Shown piece by piece: positions 44,584 through 53,366 of a DNA stretch of 64,000 bases. The stretch's first letter is position 1. Each line of letters opens with the position of its first letter. The notes beneath the pieces were generated by a model that was given only the letters and a program-made list of their open reading frames with translations, had not been told where the DNA came from and made no database searches. This stretch comes from Candidatus Sulfidibacterium hydrothermale (GTDB lineage: Bacteria; Bacteroidota; Bacteroidia; Bacteroidales; F082), in contig NZ_CP083760.1 in NCBI RefSeq assembly GCF_020149915.1, positions 1,488,001-1,552,000 of the forward strand, written 5' to 3'. Position numbers and translations under genes: made by a program.

Positions 44584-45284
44584 AAACTGATATACAATGT
44601 ATAATGAAGTTAATTCTTAAATAATGCAAAAATATTAGTGGTTAAGTTTAAATAGATATTTTTTTTTGCTAATTTGCAATTTTTAAATTTGTAGTTTATA
44701 TGTTGTATATATGTAAAGCCATTCATATGAACGAATTACAATATTATACTATGAATAGAATAATTCAGATTAATCTTTATAACAGAACCTTGTATCATGA
44801 AAAATTTTTTACTAATCCTATTAATTCTTTTTTCATTTAATGCACTGTATTCGCAAGATGTCATTTATACCATTAATGGAAAAATAGATAATCAGAACAC
44901 TTCCCTTGATTCCATTCTTGTGGAAAATTTAACCAACAATACCCGACTTTTATTCAAAAACCTTCCGGATTTACCCGATTACAATATCAATTTAACAAAA
45001 CAGGCCTTTTGGGGTGCCACGGGAATACACAACTTAAAAGAATCATCAGCCTTTTCCACGTATATTAATACCCCCGGATTATTGAGCCTTGCCTGTAATA
45101 TAAACGATTTTTCATCATTAAACATCTTTGTTTATAATATGCAGGGACAAAGGGTATATGCTGCCAGCAATGTAAGGTTAAACAGAAATAGCCTGATCAA
45201 CTTTCATTTTGGGTCCCCCGGATTATACCTGGTTGAAATAAAATCGGATTTAGGTATTCAGACTTTTAAAGGCGCAGGGTTAAA
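44584..45284 (+). repeat. direct repeat, copy 1 (promoter region plus first 162 codons of a FISUMP gene)
   Basis: About 700 bp that recurs almost unchanged at 47420-48120 with a constant offset of 2836 bp and no gaps. Only two base differences are visible in the 213 bp before the ATG, and the coding part is near identical until about residue 163. The two genes remain clearly homologous after that but diverge steadily. Confidence 0.95.
44684..44691 (+). promoter_or_regulatory. -7 promoter box of the first FISUMP gene
   Basis: TAAATTTG, exact TAnnTTTG match, about 105 bases before the ATG. TTTG at 44665-44668 is 15 bases upstream, a little short. The identical box recurs at 47520-47527 before the second gene. 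The leader would be about 100 bases. Confidence 0.45.
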
Positions 45285-47229
45285 AAAAGAGGGGACTTCT
45301 GCTGTAACCATGAGTATTCAAAATGCGACCCCGCTGTCCAATGGATTTAAAGACACAAAACAAACATCCACAAGCGATTTTAGTTTTAAGTTGGGAGACA
45401 GTCTTCGGTTTTCCGTTTATAAAAATCAATATTATGCATCTCCAATTACAATTAAAGTTTCCGGTTCGGGAACAATAAGTTTTGTTTTAAAACACGATAC
45501 CTTATTGACCGGTACTTTCACCGATTCCCGTGATGGTCAAACCTACAAAACGGTAAAAATAGGGAACCAGGAATGGATGGCCGAAAACCTGAAATATATG
45601 CCAAGTGTAAGCCCGCCTTCGCAGGGTTCTAAAGATTCTGCCTATTATTATGTTTATGGTTATCGGGGGGACAGTGTATCGGAAGCGAAGGATACAACAA
45701 ATTATAAAACTTATGGTGTATTGTACAACTGGACTGCTGCCAAAAATGCCTGTCCCAGCGGCTGGCACTTGCCCAGCGATGATGAATGGAAAATCCTGGA
45801 GATGTATCTTGGCATGAGCCAAAGTGCTGCCGATAGTAGTGATGTCCATGGCACAGATGAAGGCAAAAAGCTAAAAAGCACAAGTGGCTGGCAAAACGAT
45901 GGCAACGGTACCGATGCTGTTGGCTTTTCGGCGCTTCCGGGGGGGTACTGCGACGGCGGTGGAGATTTTGGCGATTTGGGTAACGGCGGTTACTGGTGGT
46001 CGGCTACGGTATGTCTCCCAAGACACGCATGGTACCGTTACCTAAGCTCCGGTTTCAGCGGAGTAGGCCACAACGCCAATGGTAAGGCGACCGGATATAG
46101 TGTCCGGTGTGTCAGGGACAGTGACCATGCCCCCGTTGCTAACTTTACAGCAAGTACCACAAGTGGTAAAGTCCCCTTAACGGTTACTTTCACCGACCAC
46201 TCTTCAAACACCCCTGTATTCTGGCATTGGGATTTTGGCGATGGATATACCAGTACCCTGCAGAACCCGACTCACACATATGTCTATGCTGGGACTTATC
46301 GGGTAACCTTAACCGTTACCAACAGCTATGGTTCAGGTGCTATAAAAACCGATTCAATCGTTGTTGGAGATATTCCCATTGCTAGATTTACAGCAAGCCC
46401 TACAGGTGGTACAGCCCCCTTAACGGTTACTTTCACGAACCACTCTCTCCATACCCCTACGAGCTGGCATTGGGATTTTGGCGATGGAGATAGCAGTACC
46501 CTGCGGAACCCGACCCACACATACACTCAGGTTGGAGTCTACACGGTAACCCTTACCGCAACAAATAAATATGGTACAGATACGAAAACTGAAAAATGCA
46601 TAGTCTATTCTACCGGTACATTTACCGATTCCCGTGATGGCCAAACCTACAAAACGGTAAAAATAGGGAACCAGGAATGGATGGCCGAAAACCTGAAATA
46701 TTTGCCAAGTGTAAACCCGCCTTCTGATAGTTCTTCTGTCAATCCTTATTATTATGTTTATGGTTATCAGGGGGACAGTGTATCGGAAGCGAAGGACTCA
46801 ACGAATTATAAAACCTATGGTGTATTGTACAACTGGACTGCTGCCAAAAATGCCTGCCCCAGCGGCTGGCACTTGCCCAGCGATGATGAATGGAAAACCC
46901 TGGAGATGAATCTTGGCATGAGCCAAAGAGATGCTGATGATGATGGTATTTTCCGTGGCACCGATGAAGGCAAAAAGCTCAAAAGCACAAGTGGCTGGGA
47001 CTATGGCAACGGTACCAATGCTGTTGGCTTTTCGGCGCTTCCGGGGGGGTGCCGCAGCAATAGGGTATATTTCTACGATTTGGGTAATGGCGGTTACTGG
47101 TGGTCGGTTACGGCGAGTGACTCACTAAATGCATGGTGCCGTTGCCTGGACTCCGGTTTCAGCGAAATAAGCCGCTATAGCGACCATAAGGCGTCCGGTT
47201 TTAGTGTCCGGTGTGTACGGGATCAATAG
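44797..47229 (+). CDS. FISUMP/PKD repeat surface protein (810 aa)
   Basis: Exported protein with a signal peptide (residues 1-19, ending LYSQ). Residues about 100-165 resemble the type IX secretion tail domain (SLNIFVYNMQGQRVYAA, GSPGLYLVEIKSDLG) but sit near the N-terminus. Then come FISUMP domain 1 (239-444), two PKD domains (445-606, each with the WHWDFGDG core) and FISUMP domain 2 (607-810, the C-terminus). FISUMP domains (Fibrobacter succinogenes major paralogous, TIGR02145) are thought to have a C-type-lectin-like fold. Each ends in a 147-bp variable segment (45946-46092 and 47050-47196). It probably binds ligands at the cell surface or when secreted; the ligand is unknown. It is followed by a near-identical promoter and a longer paralogue. 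Confidence 0.9.
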   Translation: MKNFLLILLILFSFNALYSQDVIYTINGKIDNQNTSLDSILVENLTNNTRLLFKNLPDLPDYNINLTKQAFWGATGIHNLKESSAFSTYINTPGLLSLACNINDFSSLNIFVYNMQGQRVYAASNVRLNRNSLINFHFGSPGLYLVEIKSDLGIQTFKGAGLKKEGTSAVTMSIQNATPLSNGFKDTKQTSTSDFSFKLGDSLRFSVYKNQYYASPITIKVSGSGTISFVLKHDTLLTGTFTDSRDGQTYKTVKIGNQEWMAENLKYMPSVSPPSQGSKDSAYYYVYGYRGDSVSEAKDTTNYKTYGVLYNWTAAKNACPSGWHLPSDDEWKILEMYLGMSQSAADSSDVHGTDEGKKLKSTSGWQNDGNGTDAVGFSALPGGYCDGGGDFGDLGNGGYWWSATVCLPRHAWYRYLSSGFSGVGHNANGKATGYSVRCVRDSDHAPVANFTASTTSGKVPLTVTFTDHSSNTPVFWHWDFGDGYTSTLQNPTHTYVYAGTYRVTLTVTNSYGSGAIKTDSIVVGDIPIARFTASPTGGTAPLTVTFTNHSLHTPTSWHWDFGDGDSSTLRNPTHTYTQVGVYTVTLTATNKYGTDTKTEKCIVYSTGTFTDSRDGQTYKTVKIGNQEWMAENLKYLPSVNPPSDSSSVNPYYYVYGYQGDSVSEAKDSTNYKTYGVLYNWTAAKNACPSGWHLPSDDEWKTLEMNLGMSQRDADDDGIFRGTDEGKKLKSTSGWDYGNGTNAVGFSALPGGCRSNRVYFYDLGNGGYWWSVTASDSLNAWCRCLDSGFSEISRYSDHKASGFSVRCVRDQ
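45946..46092 (+). other. hypervariable segment VR1 of a FISUMP domain
   Basis: 49 codons between the conserved GFSALPGG and GYSVRCVRD. All five such segments in the two genes have exactly 147 bp, no indels, and differ mainly at the first two bases of NNC/NNT codons. Confidence 0.6.
47050..47196 (+). other. hypervariable segment VR2 of a FISUMP domain
   Basis: Second domain of the first protein, near the gene's 3' end, same length and conserved edges as VR1. Starts TGC CGC AGC and ends at TCC. Confidence 0.6.
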
Positions 47230-47419
47230 GCTGTTTGGCGATTGTGGGGTTCCAAATTAATTACTACTCGCTGGTCATTGTCGAAACTATGTTTACCGGT
47301 TGTAAAGGATGTCAGGACAAAAGCCAACCGCTTAAAATACCGGGATTTGAAGCGGCTGGCTTTGCTGGGGCCAAAACAGCCCGCAGGGCCATTAAGGGAA
47401 TCACTTCGCCGGCAGAGAG
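47230..47419. other. unique spacer between the two FISUMP genes
   Basis: About 190 bp that is richer in G+C than the flanking repeat. The first about 15 bp (GGCTGTTTGG) match the bases after the second gene's stop. It contains an inverted repeat, AAAGCCAACCGCTT (47320-47333) with AAGCGGCTGGCTTT (47350-47363), which can form a 14-bp stem with one mismatch and may serve as a terminator. No convincing gene. Confidence 0.5.
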
Positions 47420-48120
47420 AAACTGATATACAATGTATAATGAAGTTAACTCTTAAATAATGCAAAAATATTAGTGGTTAAGTTTAAATAGATATTTTTT
47501 TTTGCTAATTTGCAATTTTTAAATTTGTAGTTTATATGTTGTATATATGTAAAACCATTCATATGAACGAATTACAATATTATACTATGAATAGAATAAT
47601 TCAGATTAATCTTTATAACAGAACCTTGTATCATGAAAAATTTTTTACTAATCCTATTAATTCTTTTTTCATTTAATGCACTGTATTCGCAAGATGTCAT
47701 TTATACCATTAATGGAAAAATAGATAATCAGAACACTTCCCTTGATTCCATTCTTGTGGAAAATTTAACCAACAATACCCGACTTTTATTCAAAAACCTT
47801 CCGGATTTACCCGATTACAATATCAATTTAACAAAACAGGCCTTTTGGGGTGCCACGGGAATACACAACTTAAAAGAATCATCAGCCTTTTCCACGTATA
47901 TTAATACCCCCGGATTATTGAGCCTTGCCTGTAATATAAACGATTTTTCATCATTAAACATCTTTGTTTATAATATGCAGGGACAAAGGGTATATGCTGC
48001 CAGCAATGTAAGGTTAAACAGAAATAGCCTGATCAACTTTCATTTTGGGTCCCCCGGATTATACCTGGTTGAAATAAAATCGGATTTAGGTATTCAGACT
48101 TTTAAAGGCGCAGGGTTAAG
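47420..48120 (+). repeat. direct repeat, copy 2 (promoter region plus first codons of second FISUMP gene)
   Basis: Partner of 44584-45284, offset 2836 bp. It includes the same -7 box (47520-47527) and the same about 100-base leader. Confidence 0.95.
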
Positions 48121-51100
48121 AAAAGAGGGGGCTTCTGTTGTAACCATGGATATTCGAAATGCGGCCCCGCTGCCCTATGGATTTAAAGACACAAAACAAA
48201 CATCCACAAGCGATTTTAGTTTTAAGTTGGGAGACAGTCTTCGGTTTTCCGTATATAAAAATCAATATTATGCATCTCCAATTACAATTAAAGTTTCCGG
48301 TTCGGGAACAATAAGTTTTGTTTTAAAACACGATACCTTATTGACCGGTACTTTCACCGATTCCCGTGATGGTCAAACCTACAAAACGGTAAAAATAGGG
48401 AACCAGGAATGGATGGCCGAGAACCTGAAATATTTACCAAGTGTAAGCTCACCTTCGCAGGGTTCTGAAGATTCTGCCTATTATTATGTTTATGATTATC
48501 AGGGGACCAATGTATCGGAAGCGAAGGCCACAACGAATTATAAAACCTATGGAGTATTGTATAACTGGACTGCTGCCAAAAATGCCTGCCCCAGCGGCTG
48601 GCACTTGTCCAGCGATGATGAATGGAAAATCCTGGAAATGTATCTTGGCATGAGCCAAAAAGATGCTGATGATTGGAATTTCCGTGGCACCGATGAAGGT
48701 ATAAAGCTGAGAAGCACAAGTGGTTGGAAGTACGATGGCAACGGTACCGATGTTGCTGGCTTTTCGGCGCTTCCGGGGGGGAAGCGCTACGGCAGTGGAA
48801 GTTTTGGCGCTTTGGGTCAAGGCGGTGGCTGGTGGTCGGCTACGACAAATGGCTCGGGATACGTATGGTACCGTTACCTGGCCTCCGGTTTTAGCGGAGT
48901 ATTCCGCAACTTCAGCAATAAGGCGCCCGGTTATAGTGTCCGGTGTGTCAGGGACAGTGACCATGCCCCCGTTGCTAACTTTACAGCAAGTACCACAAGA
49001 GGTAAAGCCCCCTTAACGGTTACTTTCACCGACCACTCTTCAAACACCCCTGTGTTCTGGCATTGGGATTTTGGCGATGGACATACAGGTATACTGCAGA
49101 ACCCGAGTCACACATACACCCAGGCCGGGACTTATCGGGTAACCTTAACCGCTACCAATAGCTATGGTTCAGGTACTATAAAAACCGATTCAATTGTTGT
49201 TGGTTATGCACCCGTTGCCAGCTTTACAGTGAGCCAAACAAGTGGTGACGCCCCCTTAACAGTTACTTTCACGGACCAATCTACCCATACCCCTACGAGC
49301 TGGCATTGGGATTTTGGCGATGGAGATACCAGTACCCTGCAGAACCCGACCCACACATACACTCAGGTCGGGGTTTATCATGTGGCGTTAACCGCTACCA
49401 ACAGCTATGGTTCTAATACTTACTTAGAAGCCGATTCAATTATTGTTGGTGATGTTCCTGTTGCTAACTTTACAGCAAGTCCAACAAGTGGTGACGCTCC
49501 CTTAACGGTTACTTTCACGGACCAATCTATCCATACCCCCACGAGTTGGTATTGGGATTTTGGCGATGGAGATACCAGTACCCTGCAGAACCCGACCCAC
49601 ACATACACTCAGGTTGGAAACTATACGGTAACCCTTACTGCGACAAATAAATATGCTACAAATACGAAAGCTGAAAAATGCATAACCGTCTATTCGATTG
49701 GTACTTTCACCGATTCCCGTGATGGTCAAACCTACAAAACGGTAAAAATAGGGAACCAGGAATGGATGGCCGAAAACCTGAAATACTTACCGAGTGTAAG
49801 TCCGTCTTCGCAGGTTTCTGAAGATTCTGCCTATTATTATGTTTATGGTTATCAGGGAACCAATGTATCGGAAGCAAAGGACACAACAAATTATAAAACC
49901 TATGGTGTATTGTATAACTGGACTGCTGCCCAAAATGCCTGTCCCAGCGGCTGGCACTTGCCCAGCGATGATGAATGGAAAATCCTGGAAATGTATCTTG
50001 GCATGAGCCAAAAAGATGCTGATAATTGGAATTTCCGTGGCACCGATGAAGGCAAAAAGCTCAAAAGTACCAGTGGCTGGCAAAACGATGGCAACGGTAC
50101 CGATGCTGTTGGCTTTTCGGCGCTTCCGGGGGGGGACTGCTTCGGCGGTGGATATTTTGGCGATTTGGGTAACGGCGGTTACTGGTGGTCGGCTACGGTA
50201 GGTGGTTCGGGATACGTATGGTACCGTTACCTGGACGCCGGTAAAAGCGGGATAGATCGCGACTTACACGGGAAGACGGCCGGTTATAGTGTCCGGTGTG
50301 TCAGGGACAGTGACCATGCCCCTGTTGCTAACTTTACAGCAAGTACCACAACTGGAAAAGCCCCCTTAACGGTTACTTTCACGGACCACTCTTCAAACAC
50401 CCCTGTATTCTGGCATTGGGATTTTGGAGATGGAGGTAAAAGTACCCTGCAGAATCCGACTCACACATACACCCAGGCCGGGACTTATCGGGTAACGTTA
50501 ACTGCTATCAACAGCTATGGTTCAGGTACTATAAAAACCGATTCAATCGTTGTTGTCGATGCTCCCGTTGCTAATTTTACAGCAAGCCCTGCAGGTAGTA
50601 CGGCCCCCGTAACGGTTACTTTCACGGACCACTCTTCCAATACCCCCACGAGCTGGCATTGGGATTTTGGCGATGGGGATACCAGTACCCTGCAGAACCC
50701 GACCCACACATACACTCAGGTTGGCGCCTACATGGTAATCCTTACCGCAACAAATAAATATGGTACAAATACGAAAACTGAAAAATACACCGTCTATTCT
50801 ACCGGTACATTCACCGACTCCCGTGATGGCCAAACCTACAAAACGGTAAAAATAGGGAACCAGGAATGGATGGCCGAAAACCTGAAATATTTACCAAGTG
50901 TAAGCCCGTCTTCGCAGGGTTCTGAAGATTCTGCCTATTATTATGTTTATGGTTATCAAGGAGATAGTGTATTGGAAGCAAAGGACTCAACGAATTATAA
51001 AACCTATGGAGTATTGTACAACTGGACTGCTGCCCAAAATGCCTGCCCCAGCGGCTGGCACTTGCCCAGCGATGATGAATGGAAAACCCTGGAGATGTAT

Positions 51101-51418
51101 CTTGGCATGAGCCAAAGTGATGTCAGTAATTGGAATTTCCGTGGCACCGATGAAGGCAAAAAGCTCAAAAGCACAAGTGGCTGGGAGTACGATGGCAACG
51201 GTACCAATGCTGTTGGGTTTTCGGCGCTTCCGGGGGGGAACCGCAACGAAGGTGGATATTTTGGCGATTTGGGTAACGGCGGTTACTGGTGGTCGGCTAC
51301 AGCAAGTGATTCACTACGCGCATGGCGCCGTTATCTGGACGGTGCTTACGGCGGAGTAGCCCGCTACTTCTACGATAAGGCGAACGGTTATAGTGTCCGG
51401 TGTGTACGGGATCAATAG
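47633..51418 (+). CDS. FISUMP/PKD repeat surface protein (1261 aa), paralogue
   Basis: Same architecture as the preceding gene but longer: signal peptide (1-19), an identical N-terminal part with a type IX tail-like module (about 100-165), FISUMP 1 (239-443), three PKD domains (444-689), FISUMP 2 (690-893), two PKD domains (894-1057) and FISUMP 3 (1058-1261). Each FISUMP domain has GTFTDSRDGQTYKTVKIGNQ at its start, the YNWTAAKNACPSGWHLPSDD block and the SVRCVRD end. The extra FISUMP-PKD modules suggest internal duplication. PKD domains act as rigid spacers and FISUMP domains as probable binding heads. The variable segments are at 48782-48928, 50135-50281 and 51239-51385. Confidence 0.9.
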   Translation: MKNFLLILLILFSFNALYSQDVIYTINGKIDNQNTSLDSILVENLTNNTRLLFKNLPDLPDYNINLTKQAFWGATGIHNLKESSAFSTYINTPGLLSLACNINDFSSLNIFVYNMQGQRVYAASNVRLNRNSLINFHFGSPGLYLVEIKSDLGIQTFKGAGLRKEGASVVTMDIRNAAPLPYGFKDTKQTSTSDFSFKLGDSLRFSVYKNQYYASPITIKVSGSGTISFVLKHDTLLTGTFTDSRDGQTYKTVKIGNQEWMAENLKYLPSVSSPSQGSEDSAYYYVYDYQGTNVSEAKATTNYKTYGVLYNWTAAKNACPSGWHLSSDDEWKILEMYLGMSQKDADDWNFRGTDEGIKLRSTSGWKYDGNGTDVAGFSALPGGKRYGSGSFGALGQGGGWWSATTNGSGYVWYRYLASGFSGVFRNFSNKAPGYSVRCVRDSDHAPVANFTASTTRGKAPLTVTFTDHSSNTPVFWHWDFGDGHTGILQNPSHTYTQAGTYRVTLTATNSYGSGTIKTDSIVVGYAPVASFTVSQTSGDAPLTVTFTDQSTHTPTSWHWDFGDGDTSTLQNPTHTYTQVGVYHVALTATNSYGSNTYLEADSIIVGDVPVANFTASPTSGDAPLTVTFTDQSIHTPTSWYWDFGDGDTSTLQNPTHTYTQVGNYTVTLTATNKYATNTKAEKCITVYSIGTFTDSRDGQTYKTVKIGNQEWMAENLKYLPSVSPSSQVSEDSAYYYVYGYQGTNVSEAKDTTNYKTYGVLYNWTAAQNACPSGWHLPSDDEWKILEMYLGMSQKDADNWNFRGTDEGKKLKSTSGWQNDGNGTDAVGFSALPGGDCFGGGYFGDLGNGGYWWSATVGGSGYVWYRYLDAGKSGIDRDLHGKTAGYSVRCVRDSDHAPVANFTASTTTGKAPLTVTFTDHSSNTPVFWHWDFGDGGKSTLQNPTHTYTQAGTYRVTLTAINSYGSGTIKTDSIVVVDAPVANFTASPAGSTAPVTVTFTDHSSNTPTSWHWDFGDGDTSTLQNPTHTYTQVGAYMVILTATNKYGTNTKTEKYTVYSTGTFTDSRDGQTYKTVKIGNQEWMAENLKYLPSVSPSSQGSEDSAYYYVYGYQGDSVLEAKDSTNYKTYGVLYNWTAAQNACPSGWHLPSDDEWKTLEMYLGMSQSDVSNWNFRGTDEGKKLKSTSGWEYDGNGTNAVGFSALPGGNRNEGGYFGDLGNGGYWWSATASDSLRAWRRYLDGAYGGVARYFYDKANGYSVRCVRDQ
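48782..48928 (+). other. hypervariable segment VR3
   Basis: First FISUMP domain of the second protein. 147 bp; starts AAG CGC TAC and ends CCC. Edges match the other copies. Confidence 0.6.
50135..50281 (+). other. hypervariable segment VR4
   Basis: Second FISUMP domain of the second protein. 147 bp; starts GAC TGC TTC and ends GCC. Confidence 0.6.
51239..51385 (+). other. hypervariable segment VR5
   Basis: Last FISUMP domain, at the 3' end of the second gene. 147 bp; starts AAC CGC AAC and ends AAC, the copy richest in intact AAC codons at the variable positions. Confidence 0.6.
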
Positions 51419-51535: not shown

Positions 51536-51725
51536 CATTTATTCCCGTTTTAAATGGGATAAATTTTAAAATGCACTTTTACGCGGTTTAAAATACAATT
51601 GGTATAACATCACCTTATGTTTCATGGTTCAAGTGATTGAAGATAAAGTGATTAGTCGTTGGTTAAATATATTGGTAAATTGAAAAATTAAACAGTAAAA
51701 TGAGCCACGTAACATGCCCTGTACG

Positions 51726-53366
51726 TTAGTCATAAAGAGAGGTAAAACTAAACGTTTTACCGTCAAATAAACCTTTGTCGCTCAGCTTCAATTCCGGAAT
51801 TACCAACAAAGCCATGAACGAAAGTGTCATGAAAGGTGCACGTAATGTAGCTCCCATATCATGTAACATTTTATCCAGTGTTTCATACCGGCTGGCTACC
51901 TGGTAACCATTTTCAACCGACATGAGTCCGGCCACCGGCAGGGACAAAGTATGTTCTTCACCATCTTTTACTACAACTACACCGCCTTTACTCTTGACGA
52001 TGGCATTCACCGCCTGAACAATGGCTTCGTCACTGGTGCCTACCGCAAGAATATTGTGGCTGTCGTGGGCTACACTCGAAGCAAAAGCGCCCTCTTTGAG
52101 TCCGATGTTTTTAATGAAACCTACGGCCGGTTTTGCTTTCTCATAACGGTTTAAAACAACCATTTTCAGGATGTCGTTTTCCGTATCGCTTACCAGGTTG
52201 CCCTGGACAACTTTTGGCCGGGCGTGGGCTGTTCCGGTAATAAGCTCTCCATCGTATGAAACAATGACTTTGATGTCTCCTCCTTTGTCTTCTACCCGGA
52301 TATCTTCCAGAGTAATGGTTTCGGCATGAAAATTATTGGGCATTTGTTCGATTACGGAAGAAATGAGCGGGAGTCCGTTTTCTGCTACTTTTTCTCCGTT
52401 GATGTATGTGGCCAGAACACTGAAATCTTCCAGGTTATCCACCACAATCATATCGGCCGGGTCGCCTTCGCGTAACAGGCCTACATCCATTTTATAATGG
52501 ACCACCGGGTTAAGAATGGCACTTTTCAAAACTTTTAACGGATCATGTCCTTTGGCAATAGCCCGTTTTACCAGGTCGTTAATATGTCCGGCCGCCAGAT
52601 CATTGGGATGCCGGTCGTCTGAACAGAAAAGCACTTTGTCGGCATGATCTTTCATTAAGTCAATCAGAGCTTCAAAGTTTTTGGCGGCACTTCCTTCTCT
52701 GATCTGAATTTTCATTCCGTATTTTATCTTTTCCAAAGCTTCTTCCATGGTAGAGCACTCATGATCGGTGCTGATTCCTGCAGAAGCATATTTTTGGGCA
52801 TCTTCTCCTTTGATCCCTGGAGCATGTCCGTCCACCGGTTTATGGTACTTGCGGGCAATTTCGATTTTCTTCATTTCCGAAGGCATCCGGTTGATGACAC
52901 CGGGGAAGTTCATCATTTCGGAGAGATACGCGATCTCGTCCATAGAGAGCAATTCATCCAGCTCTTTCTCGCTAAATTGTGCTCCGGCCGTTTCAAAAGG
53001 AGTGGCAGGAACACATGATGGAGCCCCAAAATAAAATTTGAACGGAACTTTTTTCCCGTTTTCAATCATGAACTTCACGCCGTCAATACCTAAAACATTG
53101 GCAACTTCGTGCGGGTCAGAAACGGTGGCAACCGTGCCGTGCACTACTGCCAGTCGTGCAAATTCCGAAGGAATCAGCATGGAGCTTTCCACATGGATGT
53201 GGGCATCAATGAGGCCGGGAAGAATGACTTGTGTCTGGGTTATTGAAGCATCTTCCTCAATCGACTGAATCTTGCCGTTTTTTACATGAACACGGCCTTT
53301 TATTACTTTTTCATTGATCAGGTCAACAATCTGACCTGAAAGTGTAAAATCATTTTTTGTTTCCAT
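51726..53366 (-). CDS. ade: adenine deaminase
   Basis: Cytosolic amidohydrolase of 546 residues deaminating adenine to hypoxanthine in purine salvage. The metal motif HIHVESSM near residue 55 follows LPGLIDA. HGTVATVSDPHEVANVLG, DGHAPGIKG, STDHECSTMEEA and FCSDDRHPNDL supply the remaining metal and catalytic residues. The C-terminal Ade domain (SVAHDSHNILAVG) is present. It stands alone. A -7 box ends 8 bases before the ATG. Confidence 0.97.
   Translation of the reverse strand: METKNDFTLSGQIVDLINEKVIKGRVHVKNGKIQSIEEDASITQTQVILPGLIDAHIHVESSMLIPSEFARLAVVHGTVATVSDPHEVANVLGIDGVKFMIENGKKVPFKFYFGAPSCVPATPFETAGAQFSEKELDELLSMDEIAYLSEMMNFPGVINRMPSEMKKIEIARKYHKPVDGHAPGIKGEDAQKYASAGISTDHECSTMEEALEKIKYGMKIQIREGSAAKNFEALIDLMKDHADKVLFCSDDRHPNDLAAGHINDLVKRAIAKGHDPLKVLKSAILNPVVHYKMDVGLLREGDPADMIVVDNLEDFSVLATYINGEKVAENGLPLISSVIEQMPNNFHAETITLEDIRVEDKGGDIKVIVSYDGELITGTAHARPKVVQGNLVSDTENDILKMVVLNRYEKAKPAVGFIKNIGLKEGAFASSVAHDSHNILAVGTSDEAIVQAVNAIVKSKGGVVVVKDGEEHTLSLPVAGLMSVENGYQVASRYETLDKMLHDMGATLRAPFMTLSFMALLVIPELKLSDKGLFDGKTFSFTSLYD

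Follow-up and report, generated by a model that had tools for sequence, protein, structure and literature searches.

Five hypervariable cassettes in two adjacent FISUMP genes

We analysed a window of 64,000 bases from Candidatus Sulfidibacterium hydrothermale (bases 1488001-1552000; the genome forms one contig of 3,266,086 bases and is 99.18% complete), in which two adjacent plus-strand genes encode five FISUMP domains (PF09603/TIGR02145) with PKD domains in between (Table 1). Each FISUMP domain carries, close to its end, a segment hereafter called the "cassette". The initial annotation of this DNA had described the cassettes as five 49-codon segments without any indel, and had tentatively linked them to adenine-specific mutagenesis of AAC and AAT (AAY) codons by a diversity-generating retroelement (DGR), with strong diversifying selection and recombination among many FISUMP genes as the alternative. 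The segments are exactly as described, and the codons quoted for columns 1, 3, 45 and 49 are correct. The cassette had been taken for the end of the domain, but nine further residues, G(Y/F)SVRCVRD, follow each copy.

Three or more residues occur in 20 of the 49 cassette columns, close to the roughly 19 first noticed, versus 7 of the 155 columns elsewhere in the domain (Fisher 3e-9); four of these seven flank columns lie at alignment columns 105-111. Nei-Gojobori counts over the ten pairs of window domains gave proportions of replacement (pN) and silent (pS) differences of 0.288 and 0.223 in the cassettes, and of 0.066 and 0.191 in the flanks. Because pS is similar to that of the flanks while pN is much higher, the cassette is neither younger nor silently frozen, and shows a large replacement excess. 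The statement that the flanks barely change thus holds for the protein but not for the DNA, nor for the seven flank columns mentioned above, and silent changes are not few, as the third position varies in 20 of the 49 cassette codons. The replacement distances of cassette and flank correlate across the ten pairs (r 0.73). The upstream and 5′ parts of the two genes are nearly identical, while the domains diverge far more, and this juxtaposition points to gene conversion or a recent partial duplication.

Table 1. Features of the FISUMP array (positions within the window)
Feature	Position	Strand	Remark
Gene 1	44797..47229	+	810 aa; two FISUMP domains, two PKD domains between
Gene 2	47633..51418	+	1261 aa; three FISUMP domains, PKD domains between
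Cassette of domain 1, hypervariable	45946..46092	+	domain 45511-46119
Cassette of domain 2, hypervariable	47050..47196	+	domain 46615-47223
Cassette of domain 3, hypervariable	48782..48928	+	domain 48347-48955
Cassette of domain 4, hypervariable	50135..50281	+	domain 49700-50308
Cassette of domain 5, hypervariable	51239..51385	+	domain 50804-51412
Gene 1, upstream and 5′ part	44584..45283	+	differs from 47420-48119 at 2 of 700 bases
Gene 2, upstream and 5′ part	47420..48119	+	near-copy of 44584-45283
Lone attC-like repeat	51606..51727	+	some 190 bases downstream of gene 2

Search for a DGR in the genome and the genus

An RVT_1 search of the genome returned three reverse transcriptases (RTs) only. 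With PADLOC, the model that fits best is retron RT_III-A for L001, DRT UG19 for L002, which is broken across two frames, and DRT UG14 for L003. The GxxxSQ motif, which is typical of DGR RTs, was not seen in the translations of the three. Brt of BPP-1 found no match in the genome at E <= 0.001. With the same query, 15 of the 149 genomes of the family, all of other genera, gave 18 matches in total at E <= 1e-35, and the search therefore works. The RT of a DGR from a sister genus (L186, described below) likewise matched nothing in the genome. The other 11 genomes of the same genus hold no DGR-grade RT; the sole RT match among them, in G002, lies in a frame with three stops and matches the L186 RT weakly (E 6e-5).

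The template was sought by a DNA search of the genome with positions 51150-51418 of the window, which returned the five copies (79-100%) and otherwise matches of 28-36 bases (E 0.41 and 1.42); a template, if present, should have surfaced at this sensitivity. A template motif pattern had no match in the genome and 13 matches in the 149 family genomes. Four of these are accounted for, in G041 and G060 by the templates and in G029 and G052 by copies of FISUMP genes, and the remaining nine, one of them in the same-genus genome G006, were judged from their context to be chance. The Avd of L187 found nothing in any of the 12 genus genomes, and the bAvd model PF22296 nothing in the genome itself, with weak sub-cut-off matches in G006 and G009; with either query, no control genome matched. 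Comparison of the window with itself yielded no near-copy pairs with mismatches facing A. The same comparison yields such pairs in BPP-1 and in 17 of 18 DGR regions from genomes of the family (L199-L216), and among the FISUMP loci compared (217 sequences overall) it yields none save in the DGR loci themselves. We also considered whether the intergenic spacer (47221-47432) might be what is left of a DGR and rejected this, its best match outside its own locus being just 24 bases (E 0.9). With the RT, template and Avd searches all empty, an active DGR in this genome was rejected, and the mechanism first proposed is not supported for the organism's own genome.

Could the machine reside elsewhere? 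A DGR on a phage or plasmid of other strains, absent from the assembly, would be able to rewrite the cassettes in trans, and PMC8143477 describes phage DGRs with targets of the Fib_succ_major kind. However, the genome holds no template-like copy, the cassettes show no adenine focus, the surroundings of 17 related viral loci revealed no DGR RT, and relatives occur in just two phage records, at about 28% identity in each. We regard a trans-acting DGR as extremely improbable.

FISUMP domains as DGR targets in sister genera

The idea that FISUMP is a kind of domain targeted by DGRs was well founded. Fib_succ_major is a documented DGR target domain, with nine such variable proteins listed in PMC4159848; it is named again as such in PMC8934634, and the targets in PMC8143477 belong to phages of Bacteroides uniformis. 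In the literature searched, the name FISUMP is nowhere coupled with DGRs, the name in use being Fib_succ_major.

Two further genera of the family harbour complete DGRs, composed of a FISUMP target, Avd, template and GxxxSQ RT. In G041 (L186/L243), 24 of 24 mismatches fall at A; in G060 (L187/L242), 23 of 24. Both encode bAvd and an RT reading GNLTSQ, and both rewrite the same segment as the window cassettes. The template segments of L186 and L187, 49 codons each between PGG and GFSVRC, align without gaps to the window cassettes. These DGRs resemble the array in the PF09603 domain itself, in the position of the segment between LPGG and GFSVRC, and in the variable columns, which largely coincide. 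They differ from it in that Avd, template and RT adjoin their target, none of which is found at the window, whereas the window has five copies, three of them inside the open reading frame (ORF) and not at its end, and lacks the adenine focus. These sister genera offer a natural comparison, in which one domain is diversified with and without the machine. Two further systems were seen in G185, where 20 of 20 mismatches fall at A and the target ends in GFSARCVRD and appears FISUMP-like, and in G179, where a decayed DGR has 25 of 31 mismatches at A.

In two species of another genus (G029 and G052; L218/L219, also L233/L234), the cassettes keep a template-like VNRNNNNK, and a motif scan of the 6-16 kb fetched recognised no RT. 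They are possible frozen leftovers of a DGR.

Adenine content and the position of the variable columns

We compared the involvement of adenine in cassettes and flanks. First- and second-base mismatches involve A in 194 of 309 cases (63%) in the cassettes versus 162 of 224 (72%) in the flanks, and variable first- and second-base sites include A at 41 of 56 versus 35 of 47. The cassettes therefore show no adenine bias, contrary to the mutagenesis that had been suggested. The lack of an RT and template and a substitution pattern without adenine bias are the two outcomes that the initial annotation had named as refuting its idea, and both are observed here. They bear on present-day DGR action only; an earlier DGR is weighed below.

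The third base was examined at the 26 AAY-type columns, defined as AAY in at least one of the two related DGR templates. Here, 113 of 130 codons end in C or T, in agreement with the initial annotation that the third base mostly stays C or T. It does not stay put between the two: in pyrimidine-ending codons, C and T differ in 39 of 212 pair-cells at these columns versus 82 of 888 in the flanks, about twice as often (7 of 17 versus 18 of 85 by column, p = 0.08). Such an excess of flips in AAY-type codons does not fit a pure adenine mechanism.

Does the coincidence of variable columns with a DGR template imply a DGR? A collection of 76 cassettes contained 34 with 49 codons. Exclusion of the five window copies, L186 (2), the L187 template, L218 and L219 left 24, and removal of two without W at column 18 left 22, all without a DGR seen in the locus. 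These 22 cassettes vary at the same columns, with a rho of 0.66 to the window and of 0.57 to the template. Since the variable columns coincide also without a DGR, the overlap mostly means that DGRs write where FISUMP tolerates change. Hypervariable AAY-like codons alone accordingly do not establish a DGR, because the columns that vary in FISUMP tips are the same whether or not the locus holds one.

Phylogeny and FISUMP domains elsewhere

A tree of the domain part outside the cassette (52 rows; L263 was left out because its start motif was not found) places the five window domains in a single clade (98/97). A clade of ten (100/98) unites them with L187 and four further rows whose loci lack a DGR; the four same-genus rows of the tree do not group with them. 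The nearest FISUMP relatives, namely the best 20 or so loci of the collections scanned, are 45-54% identical in their best segments.

These data bear on the possibility that FISUMP genes of other genomes donated the cassettes as blocks, horizontal transfer being one conceivable route. The near-identical 5′ ends beside diverged domains do show that the locus underwent exchange or recent duplication. A broken FISUMP gene also lies in an attC-like array at about 2.019 Mb, with a lone attC-like site 3′ of gene 2. Nevertheless, no donor was seen in the collections scanned, relatives being as distant as stated above, and the whole array forms one clade outside the cassette. We regard block replacement as very unlikely.

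FISUMP exceeds the cut-off in 67 of the 149 family genomes, with up to 20 matches per genome. We searched with the L186 RT 48 genomes, which are those behind 49 of 79 related FISUMP loci; nine match at E <= 1e-6 and five at E <= 1e-13. DGR-grade RTs are therefore few in FISUMP-bearing genomes, and the orphan state is the usual one among the genomes examined. A motif scan of 96 FISUMP loci (L072-L167) gave loose RT-like ORFs in eight, which were rejected by Pfam: L099 is a group II intron maturase, L125 and L157 are FISUMP genes, and the other five lack RVT_1.

Raised tip divergence also occurs in tandem FISUMP domains elsewhere, although comparable pairs are few: only two others have flank pS < 0.45, and one pair has pS < 0.5. 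The pN of cassette versus flank is 0.41 versus 0.10 in L089 (Lac Pavin Bacteroidia) and 0.32 versus 0.17 in L112 (Kiritimatiellae), and neither genome has an L186 RT match at E <= 1e-6. These loci are like the array in their tandem domains, raised tip pN and lack of an L186-type RT match, and unlike it in showing greater overall divergence between copies and, among several cassettes, unequal lengths. Slow cassettes exist as well: L218 and L219, from two species, are one residue apart, and L025 and L037 two, comparing cassettes only.

Predicted fold and location

An AlphaFold2 model built from 38 sequences reached a pLDDT of 96.0 and a pTM of 0.92. Its best match in the PDB is the C-terminal domain of Legionella Lcl (E 0.01, probability 0.99), with none at E <= 0.001, followed by 4eps, a Bdellovibrio Bd2740 domain and weak C-type lectins; a sequence search of the PDB gave no match. 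The sorting-domain model of the type IX secretion system, TIGR04183, is barely over its cut-off in both proteins, at residues 103-158 and not at the C-terminal end. A secreted binding role is likely for these proteins.

Proposed origin of the cassettes

We propose, with a probability of about 0.57, that the array consists of orphan paralogues of a DGR-target domain, shaped by duplication, diversifying selection and gene conversion. The two genes would encode probable secreted or surface proteins, in which PKD spacers separate five FISUMP domains. FISUMP would act as a lectin-like binding domain, with the last 50 or so residues probably forming its ligand-facing tip. Duplication within the lineage would have given the five copies, and diversifying selection may then have driven their tips apart, with the other parts held uniform by gene conversion or partial duplication. 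No DGR would act on the array in its own genome, and its domains would be orphan members of a class that DGRs target in sister genera. As the genome is without a DGR, the cassette differences most likely come from duplication and selection.

Several observations weigh against this origin. Domains 3 and 4, the pair with the closest flanks, still show a cassette pN of 0.286, so that the excess does not shrink with relatedness, unlike simple accumulation. The tree row nearest to the array is L187, a true DGR target. AAY occurs in at least one related template at 18 of the 20 highly variable columns versus 8 of the 29 others (p = 1.5e-5), and the variable positions comprise 46 of the 66 A positions of the L186 template versus 30 of its 81 other positions. 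Of the first- and second-base sites with three or more bases, 16 of 17 include A, which would weakly fit AAY ancestry. Finally, fourfold codons end in C or T in 42 of 51 cases at AAY-type columns versus 212 of 338 in the flanks and 28 of 71 at the other cassette columns (26 of 31 versus 65 of 104 when AAY-type columns and flanks are counted once per column and codon), an excess that may hold a trace of the same ancestry.

A rival reading is that an ancestral multi-target DGR wrote the cassettes from an AAY-rich template and that the copies have drifted since the loss of its RT, Avd and template. The gap-free collinearity with two templates of the same family, the C/T-ending excess, the DGR target as nearest relative and the resemblance of L218/L219 to frozen leftovers in another genus all suit such a history. 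A precedent is reported in PMC4891356, where Treponema denticola isolates without RT and template retain leftover DGR target genes. Those targets are likewise hypervariable and of lectin type, in a genome without the machine, but a known template can be assigned to them (in one example, 19 of 21 mutations fall at adenines), whereas none is known in the window's species or genus. On the other side, A-containing variable first and second bases are no commoner in the cassettes than in the flank, the C/T flips in the same codons run at about twice the flank rate, and 30 of the 81 non-A template positions vary as well. In addition, the array's own genome bears no trace of a DGR RT, template or Avd, and the 11 other genomes of the genus no DGR-grade RT. 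We consider fossil DGR targets the next most likely origin, possible but rather doubtful.

A combined history appears quite unlikely, in which the lectin tips of a fossil multi-target repertoire were kept and the machine discarded, with duplication, selection and gene conversion following. If it were true, such binding specificities could have been written by a retroelement and also be mobilised as cassettes, because FISUMP genes also lie inside the integron-like array of this genome.

Guanine runs and an integron-like array

Immediately 5′ of every cassette lies a run of seven or eight G, within the LPGG codons (45939-45945, 47043-47049, 48775-48781, 50128-50135 and 51232-51238). The window has nine runs with at least six G, five of which are these. 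They could be prone to slippage and hence to phase variation.

The integron-like array extends over 1944379-2026824 of the genome (L318, L309, L319, L310 and L311) and is built on a repeat of about 124 bases with attC-like inverted ends. In the five stretches fetched, the repeat has 68 same-strand and four opposite-strand matches (profile E <= 1e-3), often 500-1200 bases apart. The array contains a retron, DRT UG14 and the broken FISUMP gene. About 1 kb before the first repeat lies a tyrosine recombinase (L318:14151-15314), which is over the cut-off of the model "site-specific tyrosine recombinase/integron integrase" and below that of the integron-integrase model. For the lone attC-like repeat of the window, the DNA fold of 51595-51740 has a z of 0.46. 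Outside the array, two copies of the attC-like repeat flank the split DRT UG19 genes (L312:9535-11919, about 2.69 Mb) in a cassette-like manner.

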